Shown here piece by piece: positions 32,096-34,433 of a DNA stretch of 64,000 nt. This DNA comes from Alicyclobacillus acidocaldarius subsp. acidocaldarius Tc-4-1 (GTDB lineage Bacteria; Bacillota; Bacilli; Alicyclobacillales; Alicyclobacillaceae). Location: assembly GCF_000219875.1 (NCBI RefSeq), contig NC_017167.1, forward strand, positions 1,299,092 to 1,363,091, written 5' to 3'. The translations under genes were made by a program, and so were the position numbers. Numbering within the stretch: the first letter of the stretch is position 1; each line of letters starts with the position of its first letter. The notes under the pieces are model-generated. The model ran no database searches, had not been told where the DNA came from, and was given only the letters and a program-made list of their open reading frames with translations.

Positions 32096-32576
32096 CGATG
32101 AGGTCGAGATTCGCGTGGGCATCGCCGAAGGGGCCATCCTCCGCGGTCCGGGTCGGCTGGTGACGACAGGCCTCGGCTCGTGCGTGGGTGTGGTGATCTA
32201 CGATGCCGTAGGCCATGTGGCGGGATTGGCACATGTGATGCTGCCCGAGAGCCCTTCGCCTGACACCAAGGCGCCGCAAAAATACGCGGACACCGCGATT
32301 GACTGGCTCATCCGCGAGATTGTGCATGCGGGCGGGAGTCCTCTGCGCCTCCGCGCGAAGTACGCCGGCGGAGCGCAGATGTTTCAAGGCGTGAAGATGG
32401 AGACGCTTCGCGTCGGAGAGCGCAATGCGGAGGCGGTGAAAAAGCGGCTTGCGGACAGAGGAATCCCTGTTATCGGAAGAGACGTGGGTGGACATCAAGG
32501 CAGGACCTTATGGTTTGACTTGCCGTCGTGTGTGCTCACTGTGCGAACGGTCAGAGGCGACATGCGAGTGCTTTGA
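32088..32576 (+). CDS. cheD: Chemoreceptor glutamine deamidase CheD
   Basis: Deamidates receptor glutamines and stimulates CheC. GTG 32088 gives 162 residues with active-site Cys31 (TTGLGSCVGVVIYD) and His48 (AGLAHVMLP). The CheC-contact helix region is near KYAGGAQMFQ, and the protein ends LPSCVLTVRTVRG. A longer frame upstream lies entirely within cheC and is rejected. In B. subtilis sigD follows; here the next gene is swrB-like, 24 bases on. Confidence 0.94.
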   Translation: MVDDEVEIRVGIAEGAILRGPGRLVTTGLGSCVGVVIYDAVGHVAGLAHVMLPESPSPDTKAPQKYADTAIDWLIREIVHAGGSPLRLRAKYAGGAQMFQGVKMETLRVGERNAEAVKKRLADRGIPVIGRDVGGHQGRTLWFDLPSCVLTVRTVRGDMRVL

Positions 32577-32600
32577 CGCGAGGAAGGGGGGAACGAAAAG

Positions 32601-33307
32601 GTGTGGGAGACGCTCATCTTGGCCGCGGTGTGTATGGTGCTCCTCGCCATGCTGTACGCCTTAAGTGGCGCTTGGAAAACGCACCCGGGTATCCGAGGTT
32701 TTTCCGGTGGATGGCATCTCAATGGCGCTTGCGCGGCGCGAGCCAGGGCTCGCCCAAAAACGCTGGTTTGTCAGCAGAACGCGCGCGGTGGGAACCCGTG
32801 GCCGTTGAGAGGACCTCGGACGCGCGTTTGGCGATCCAGGTTCTCGAAGAGTTGTACCGGGAATGGGACCAGCGAAGCCGAATACTCGAGGCGCGAATTC
32901 AGGCGCTTGAGACGGCGGTGGCTCGGATGACCGCAGAGGTCGGCGAGGCTCTGCATGGTGCGAGGCATGGCGGGAACCACGCGGTAAACGGCGATTTTGT
33001 CCCCAAGCAGATGGAGGGGCTCTCTGAACTTGACTTTCAGCACGAAGCTCCGCTTGAGTCGGCTGCGGAGAAGGGCGAGCAAGGGGCCTCGGCGGGGGCG
33101 GTTGACGCGTGGACGGAGGACCGCGAGCCTGCGCGCCCGAGCGTCCATGCGTCTCAAGAGCGCCTGTATTTTTCGATTCTTGACCTCCTTCACGAAGGCC
33201 GATCTCGAGACGAGATTCGGGATCTGCTGGGCGTGTCGGCGGACGAGATCGCAAGGGTCGAGCAGCTGTTGTGTAGGGTAGAGCCTTCAGAGCCGGGCGT
33301 TCATTGA
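32601..33307 (+). CDS. SwrB-like (DUF6115-type) membrane protein, frameshifted in this sequence
   Basis: GTG 32601, with GAGGAAGGGGGG upstream, starts a membrane anchor (WETLILAAVCMVLLAMLYAL, residues 2-21). The frame then breaks, probably at A4 32676-32679; one added A continues as KNAPGYPRFFRWMASQWRLR and yields 235 residues. A coiled coil follows (LEELYREWDQRSRILEARIQ), then an acidic linker. The C-terminal helical domain reads RLYFSILDLLHEGRSRDEIR and DLLGVSADEIARVEQLL. This anchor-coil-helix architecture and the end-of-che-operon position match SwrB, which in B. subtilis promotes assembly of the FliP export gate. The family call is by architecture. Confidence 0.7.
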
Positions 33308-33639
33308 CGAGCCCCTGCGTCGCTTGGGTGCTATCCACGCCCTCCCGAGCCGTCACCGTTTTCCTTCCTCGTCGCGTACAATGGGCCATGCGTGTGTTCA
33401 GCCAGCTTTGGCTTTGGACGTCGCTTTACAGACCGCGATGGGGCGAGGGAGAACGGGTGAAGACGAGTGGACATCGTGTGCTGAAGGGGCGGTGCAGGGC
33501 TCCTGCCTCGAGGGCGTGGATCGCACCATCGGTGTGGCGTGCAGGGATCGAGAGAGGCGCAGATCCGGGTGGAGGACAAGGAAAAATTCGGTCAGACGAG
33601 CGGCGCGTGGGAGAGCCGAATGCGGGCGCAGTAGGTGCT
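33308..33639. other. Spacer without a supported gene
   Basis: This 332-base stretch follows the swrB-like gene. Several frames are open, but none shows a recognisable domain or a ribosome binding site. A TACAAT at 33377-33382 resembles a -10 box without a convincing -35. It may hold the promoter of the small gene at 33640. Confidence 0.4.
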
Positions 33640-33900
33640 GTGTCTGAAGCGCTCAAGACCCCCATTCGCCTGGAATCCCAGGAGATTCACATCGGAGACG
33701 TCGTCACTGTGTACACGCTGGGCCTCGGCCCTGCCAACCCAGGGTTTACCGGCGTGGTGCTGAGATCGACGCCCTCCTACTTGCACCTCGGATTGTTTGC
33801 GCACGAGGGAGAGTCTGGCAGCACTCAGTGCCCCGTGGTCGCCGAAGCCATCATTCGCTACGACCAAATCGCCTGTGTGGTGCGCCGCATATCGCGTTGA
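33640..33900 (+). CDS. Small beta-rich protein, paralog A of a convergent pair
   Basis: An 86-residue protein starting VSEALKTPIRLESQEIHIGD and continuing VVTVYTLGLGPANPGFTG. The pattern (hydrophobic-x-G-D/E-VVTVY/F, then GFTG/GYTG, then YLHLGL/NLYLLL, then a final I-x-x-D/G-Q-I-x-x-V/I) matches the minus-strand gene at 33982-34260 along its length, so the two look like diverged paralogs. Alternating polar and hydrophobic residues suggest a small beta-barrel. Start chosen because the lead before the core (15 residues) then matches the paralog's 14; the ribosome binding site is weak. The frame is open upstream to 33304 without support. Function unknown. Confidence 0.55.
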   Translation: MSEALKTPIRLESQEIHIGDVVTVYTLGLGPANPGFTGVVLRSTPSYLHLGLFAHEGESGSTQCPVVAEAIIRYDQIACVVRRISR

Positions 33901-33945
33901 GCGAGTGGTAAGCTTCTTGGGTGCGACGTGCAAAACAAGGGAATC

Positions 33946-33976
33946 CGCGAGCGAGAGGAGAGTCCTCTCGCCCGCG
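33946..33976. terminator. Long hairpin between the convergent small genes
   Basis: CGCGAGCGAGAGGA (33946-33959) pairs with TCCTCTCGCCCGCG (33963-33976) with a single mismatch and a three-base loop. On the minus strand it is followed by a T-rich segment (GATTCCCTTGTTTTG), fitting termination of the minus-strand gene. No T run follows on the plus strand. Confidence 0.65.
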
Positions 33977-33981
33977 AGAAC

Positions 33982-34260
33982 TCACAAGTCGTTTTGGATG
34001 ATCGACGTGATCTGGCCGAGCGGAATCGTTGCGAGCGCGCCGAACGTGGTTCCGCTTCCCGCTGTGCCGAAGGTTCCGGTGGCGCCACTCGGCGCAGAAG
34101 CGGGCGCGAGCAGGAGGTAGAGGTTGTTGCTGTCCACCCCGACGATAGCGCCCGTGTACCCACCTCCGCCCGTTCCACCCGCGGTGGTAAACACGGTGAC
34201 GACTTCCCCGAGATGAAGTTGGCGAATCGAGTTGGCGATATTGAAGTTGTTCGTCGCCAT
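33982..34260 (-). CDS. Small beta-rich protein, paralog B of a convergent pair
   Basis: A 92-residue protein from ATG 34260, with GAGGGAA four bases upstream. It begins MATNNFNIANSIRQLHLGEV, continues VVTVFTTAGGTGGGGYTGAI, and closes with FGALATIPLGQITSIIQNDL. A Gly/Ala/Ser/Thr-rich loop occupies about residues 55-75. The layout (short lead, strand, Gly-rich turn, NLYLLL strand, IPLGQI strand) resembles a small Sm-like or spore-coat-type beta-barrel, but I do not recognise the family. It faces its likely paralog at 33640-33900. Composition differs from the housekeeping neighbours, and no function is assigned. Confidence 0.7.
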   Translation of the reverse strand: MATNNFNIANSIRQLHLGEVVTVFTTAGGTGGGGYTGAIVGVDSNNLYLLLAPASAPSGATGTFGTAGSGTTFGALATIPLGQITSIIQNDL

Positions 34261-34292
34261 GGGCTTCCCTCGCTTTCCAGGCAGGTTTTGCA

Positions 34293-34315: not shown

Positions 34316-34433
34316 CACACTGTAGACAATGCAGAAGCAGGAAGCCGGGTCACGGACGAAACACCTGGGTGATATGCCTTAAAAATGGAGTGAAATGGGT
34401 AGTTCCGGTGGGCGCGCCGATGGCTACGGACGG

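Follow-up and report, generated by a model that had tools for sequence, protein, structure and literature searches.

Two small convergent genes of Alicyclobacillus acidocaldarius subsp. acidocaldarius Tc-4-1, here called A and B, are probably ancient paralogs within an undescribed family of Sm/Hfq-barrel sporulation proteins, which would be made late in the mother cell and form rings or sheets in the spore envelope. Profile comparisons place A-type, B-type and clostridial-type proteins in one family by full-length similarity, and this family has no name or model in the libraries searched (Pfam and NCBIfam). Both proteins are predicted to adopt five-stranded Sm/Hfq-like barrels with a common strand order, promoter signatures upstream of most members argue for sporulation control, and we infer the spore-envelope location and the ring assembly of A and B.

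A paralogous gene pair between the che operon and rpsB

We analysed a 64,000-nt stretch of DNA (the window) from the source genome, a single contig of 3.12 Mb. A preliminary description of the window had reported open reading frames of 86 and 92 residues facing each other between the che operon and rpsB, and both are there (Table 1), with cheA, cheW, cheC, cheD and a swrB-like gene upstream and rpsB and tsf downstream. The four genomes compared share no start codon for gene A, which leaves its start uncertain. The named relatives matched were Alicyclobacillus mali and A. sendaiensis. The gene at 32601-33307, which we take to be swrB-like and whose product has a weak match to DUF2802, is split into two frames here versus one open frame in G010, G012 and G014, reflecting either a strain-specific frameshift or a sequence error. 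In B. subtilis, sigD sits between cheD and swrB; the interval between cheD and the swrB-like gene in the window (32576-32601) is too short for it.

Table 1 Features of the A/B locus (window coordinates)
Feature	Position	Strand	Description
Two short conserved blocks	33350-33384	+	After the swrB-like gene; alignment of four genomes
Gene A	33640-33900	+	86 aa as called, GTG start; A-type; homology from about residue 12
Hairpin	33946-33976		Arms 33946-33959 and 33963-33976, 14 nt, 93% complementary, 3-nt loop
Gene B	33982-34260	-	92 aa, ATG start; B-type
GAGGG	34267-34271	-	Likely ribosome-binding site of B; read directly off the sequence
Putative mother-cell promoter of B	34323-34360	-	SpoIIID-like box and sigma-K-like elements
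-10-like element CATTGTCTA	34323-34331	-	Sigma-K-like; B promoter
AC of the -35	34349-34350	-	Sigma-K-like; B promoter
SpoIIID-like box TTCGTCCG	34353-34360	-	Conserved in 8/9 B-type genes

The two proteins had been described as paralogs, and profile–profile comparison bears this out. In its own 3.1-Mb genome, B had A as its sole other match at E ≤ 1 (E 3.3e-4), and A matched B (E 3.1e-4) and one weak, unrelated place (0.76). A single A against a single B aligned over only 12 residues by BLASTP (E 0.001). Profiles of five sequences each aligned over 72 columns with 31% identity (E 1.9e-10), and hhalign of eight A-type against nine B-type sequences returned a probability of 98.2% over 78 columns, indicating full-length homology; the clostridial types aligned with A-types at 97.1% and with B-types at 98.7%. 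B orthologs from three genomes are 85–91% identical. Across six genome pairs, dN/dS was 0.05–0.13 for B and 0.09–0.34 for the core of A; A evolves faster than B, and four genomes keep the frame of its core open. Both are therefore real proteins under selection.

The 14-bp hairpin that had been noticed between the facing genes was also found, between the two stop codons, and it forms a more stable fold than shuffled sequences do (z -4.9). The three other genomes with the pair carry hairpins at the same site (z -6.2, -2.4 and -2.5). Neither a T-run terminator nor a sigma-70 promoter was found in the hairpin region, and the hairpin is possibly a shared transcript end of A and B that lacks a T-run.

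A genome survey showed that the two genes occur linked, in more than one layout. Within the genus, 4 of 15 genomes have the pair, always as convergent neighbours. With profile searches, members turned up in 7/59 genomes of the order and in 7/398 of the class, one of the latter (G147) being new. Three of the four class carriers outside the genus (G038, G048 and G147) have a tandem order instead: both genes share a strand, A follows B at a distance of about 65–75 nt and an inverted repeat is visible between them. In G056, two B-types and one A-type are spread over three contigs, the A-type at a contig end. No functional context was found among the neighbour genes in G147 and G048. In the tree, all eight A-types fall on one side of a branch with support of 100/99; B-types are not cleanly split from clostridial types in this unrooted tree. 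Because the A-types group with this support and the order is tandem elsewhere, the convergent layout is a local variant, and the A/B split is older. The tail-to-tail inverted duplication put forward in the preliminary description as the origin of the pair is thus opposed by both the tree and the gene order, and inverted matches between A and B at the DNA level are short and chance-like. Two clostridial-type members, L083 and L099 (G966:C66:38843-39574), are convergent like the window pair, so this arrangement may have evolved repeatedly.

Members extend well beyond the class. A phylum sample contained the family in 9 of 398 genomes (the window's own and eight others), and in another class it is carried by 21 of 245 genomes, 14 of them with two to four matches each; in 11 of these 14, at least two matches are no more than 3 kb apart. 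What members from that class have in common is a core like GETVTIFTTSGG-GSGFTG, and their insert between strands 3 and 4 is longer and often Cys/Gly-rich. The family alignment comprises 30 members, including 13 clostridial-type rows out of 54 matches. The pair had been singled out as an undescribed element, and no Pfam or NCBIfam model fits it: Pfam gave no family for A or B at E ≤ 10 and no convincing match among 20 members scanned, and none of the 30 alignment members convincingly matched an NCBIfam model. In neither library did one protein alone show a clear match to an unrelated family. For the two window proteins, PHROGs returned nothing beyond phrog_13935 (E 0.024); sequence searches of the PDB gave only weak, unrelated matches, plasmid records had no match to the one clostridial-type and one B-type member searched, and a word-based literature search returned no paper recognisable by its title or the start of its abstract as being about this family.

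Weak matches to RimP_C, DUF2642, Lustrin_cystein, Tubulin, MM0924, Soli_cterm and a toxin-subunit model were rejected as chance or below cut-off. DUF2642 (PF10842) was considered as a parent family: its beta1-beta2 stretch aligns in register with the A/B family, and one clostridial member reached 13.7 bits against a cut-off of 22.7. Its hhalign probability was 17.6% for the whole family and 0.8–29% by subset, and no match above cut-off was present in the window's genome; it finds no support in this role.

Predicted fold and structural neighbours

The AlphaFold2 model of A (pLDDT 79.4, 30-sequence alignment) has strands at residues 21–26, 35–43, 47–53, 66–73 and 77–82, and that of B (pLDDT 64.9, 10-sequence alignment) has a helix at 8–13 and strands at 20–25, 35–42, 46–51, 76–80 and 84–89, with a GGTGGGGYTG loop and a Gly/Ala-rich loop between strands 3 and 4. 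Because both alignments mix A and B types, the models are not fully independent tests; within that limit the two predicted folds resemble each other, and the Sm-like fold that had been suggested is predicted for both proteins, with five strands in Sm order.

Structural searches with these models returned many small barrels. Foldseek gave no match reaching E 0.001 for either protein; the best for B was 9bxa_E from the Mnx complex (E 0.013), followed by Lsm and Hfq chains, whereas A scored best against a long-loop Hfq (E 0.008) and had 9bxa_E in rank 36 (E 0.076). In VIA, B was matched by CgeA (Z 7.7, rmsd 2.0 over 65 residues), a designed small barrel (7.5), GerQ (7.2), many Hfq structures (about 7) and 9bxa_E (6.7), and A by GerQ (Z 8.2, rmsd 2.3 over 65 residues), a Kuenenia cytochrome domain (8.1) and Hfq (7.2–7.9), with CgeA and 9bxa_E absent from the best 50 matches of A. 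Z values of 6.7–8.2 may reflect a common arrangement only. The presence of the spore proteins GerQ, CgeA and MnxE among the predicted-fold neighbours, beside many Hfq structures and with none significant alone, is suggestive. On account of these neighbours, the 'Sm-like' fold of the preliminary description and its alternative, a 'small spore-surface barrel', may coincide. Both models have among their best structural matches the Kuenenia domain, a C-terminal domain of the diheme cytochrome c Kustd1711 (PDB 7zs0-7zs2), with 23–25% identity over about 55 residues.

GerQ, a Bacillus spore-coat protein (PDB 8zra), is like the models of A and B a five-stranded barrel of similar size. It differs in having a longer N-terminal part and a single gene, and no sequence relation to A or B was found: its Pfam model was unmatched by A and B at E ≤ 10 and was not among the matches of 17 members. 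In GerQ, strands link the nine subunits of each layer into a continuous sheet, and the layers stack as filaments (PMC11405398). Nine-subunit rings have been shown for GerQ, and for A and B we only infer them. MnxE and MnxF (PDB 9bxa) are likewise paired small proteins, with a barrel fold that may be similar to the one predicted for B (Foldseek rank 1, VIA Z 6.7); those of Bacillus sp. PL-12 form an MnxE3F3 hexamer for which alternation has been proposed (PMC5622069). They differ from A and B in that no multicopper oxidase was found among the A/B neighbours scanned, and no sequence relation was detected. CgeA of the B. subtilis spore crust (PDB 9l9d) is also a barrel and, as the top VIA match of B, may resemble it in predicted fold. 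Hfq and other Sm-like proteins have the predicted strand order and barrel type in common with A and B but differ in that A and B have no Pfam match and show the pattern of sporulation proteins.

Promoter signatures and the link to sporulation

A role at the spore surface had been raised in the preliminary description, and a link to sporulation is now supported at the sequence level, by sigma-K-type promoter signatures and by the presence of SpoIVA in all carriers tested. SpoIVA (PF09547) was found in 36/36 carriers versus 29/44 sampled non-carriers (Fisher p 6e-5), in 21/21 carriers of one class versus the same 44 non-carriers (p 0.0014) and, at completeness of at least 90%, in 31/31 carriers versus 26/35 non-carriers, genomes being treated as independent in the Fisher tests. 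Non-carriers were sampled from the 224 of one class by taking every fifth from G800, with carriers skipped, plus G701, which gave the 44. These counts indicate that carriers look like spore-formers, yet most sampled spore-formers lack the family.

The putative promoter of B can be written as a composite motif, TT[TC]GTCC[AG]-N20/21-CATNNNNTA, that precedes 8/9 B-type genes and the G056 A-type gene, and is absent from G147. Because the motif was drawn from B-type upstream regions after they had been viewed, it fits B-types by construction; its tests are its absence elsewhere and its match before the G056 A-type gene, which had been left out of the writing. There was no other match in the 541 kb searched (overlapping), the copy before B was the sole strict match in the window, and 50 shuffles of the window gave one match in total. 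The SpoIIID consensus is WWRRACARNY. Read on the other strand, the boxes of eight genes agree with it at 9–10 of 10 positions, and the window's copy at 7 of 10. The AC at -35 and the -10 before these genes agree with the published description of sigma-K promoters (PMC3789822), but the Alicyclobacillus -10 has CATT, not CATA.

A similar pattern recurs in distant members, where AC-N16/17-CATANNNT lies 20–130 nt upstream of 24/38 genes and is absent from 14/38, compared with a mean of 0.8 and a maximum of 5 in 1,000 shuffles and 3 on the reverse strand. This set comprised 38 of the 54 distinct matches, with starts assigned by a mechanical rule, and many of its genes are close relatives. Most members thus appear to have upstream the AC at -35 and a CATANNNT-like -10 of the mother-cell sigma-K regulon. 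The search for sigma-K-like patterns upstream of A came out negative in this clade. The two conserved blocks there, CGTCACCG and CGTACAATGG / CGTAC(A/G)ATGG, fit no promoter pattern tried and are possibly the promoter of A. In G932 (L105 5221-10254), a row of three family genes has CotJA, CotJB, a Mn catalase and a cupin protein as neighbours, about 2 kb away.

Proposed role, alternatives and significance

We suggest that the mother cell makes the A/B family proteins late in sporulation under sigma-K with SpoIIID, and that the proteins would then go to the coat or the exosporium; among the genomes tested, the family was found only in those with spoIVA. The barrels could associate through their edges to give rings or sheets, for which GerQ and MnxE/MnxF provide precedents; the loop linking strands 3 and 4, which varies and is rich in Gly/Ala or in Cys, would then be exposed. 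A and B would perhaps share one ring, as MnxE does with MnxF. This narrower proposal, that A and B together build a heteromeric spore-envelope ring within an unnamed Sm-fold sporulation family, is put forward tentatively, as a plausible idea that falls short of being probable.

Several other roles would fit parts of these data. As small mother-cell proteins, A and B might act in the manner of GerQ, bringing a germination enzyme or some other client to the coat instead of forming a structural layer; GerQ heads the VIA matches of A and is listed for B. We regard this as unlikely, given that many unrelated barrels score alike, that no sequence relation of GerQ to A or B was found and that no client gene was found adjoining the pair. 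Rather doubtful, too, is a heteromeric copper-binding ring of MnxE/MnxF-like accessory proteins serving a spore-surface multicopper oxidase: 9bxa_E is the best Foldseek match of B and two small proteins are adjacent in both systems, but the low rank of 9bxa_E for A, the lack of a detected sequence relation and the failure to find a multicopper oxidase when 8 neighbouring proteins in the window and 17 elsewhere were scanned argue against it. An RNA-binding function of the Hfq/Sm type would account for the Hfq and Lsm chains that dominate the fold lists of both proteins; it seems very improbable, as neither A and B (E ≤ 10) nor 17 members (E ≤ 1) matched the Hfq/LSM families and as a protein of the envelope would agree better with the sporulation promoters and with inserts rich in Cys and Gly.

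The pair might also be functionally unequal, with only B working in this clade and A a leftover paralog that lost its promoter on moving behind the che operon. The faster evolution of A and its lack of a recognised promoter or a conserved start codon are consistent with such a loss, to which we nevertheless attach little weight: the dN/dS of the A core lies at 0.09–0.34 in each of the six pairs, its frame is open in four genomes and two conserved blocks lie upstream. We favour the reading of A and B as ancient paralogs of an undescribed Sm/Hfq-barrel sporulation family with a place in the spore envelope.

The Sm/Hfq barrel is best known for holding RNA. Small Sm-fold spore proteins are already known by example, and the A/B family itself is without a name in the libraries searched. 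To our knowledge, the outer-spore proteins of organisms beyond Bacillus and a few Clostridia are mostly unknown. With members in two classes of spore-formers, candidate sporulation promoters and no model in the databases, the A/B family provides a concrete, testable set of genes. If A and B do build a heteromeric ring, then, with GerQ, MnxE/F and CgeA, the Sm/Hfq barrel would have been recruited repeatedly to build bacterial spore surfaces; and if the barrels form rings, repeated recruitment of the Sm fold to tile spores would become directly testable.
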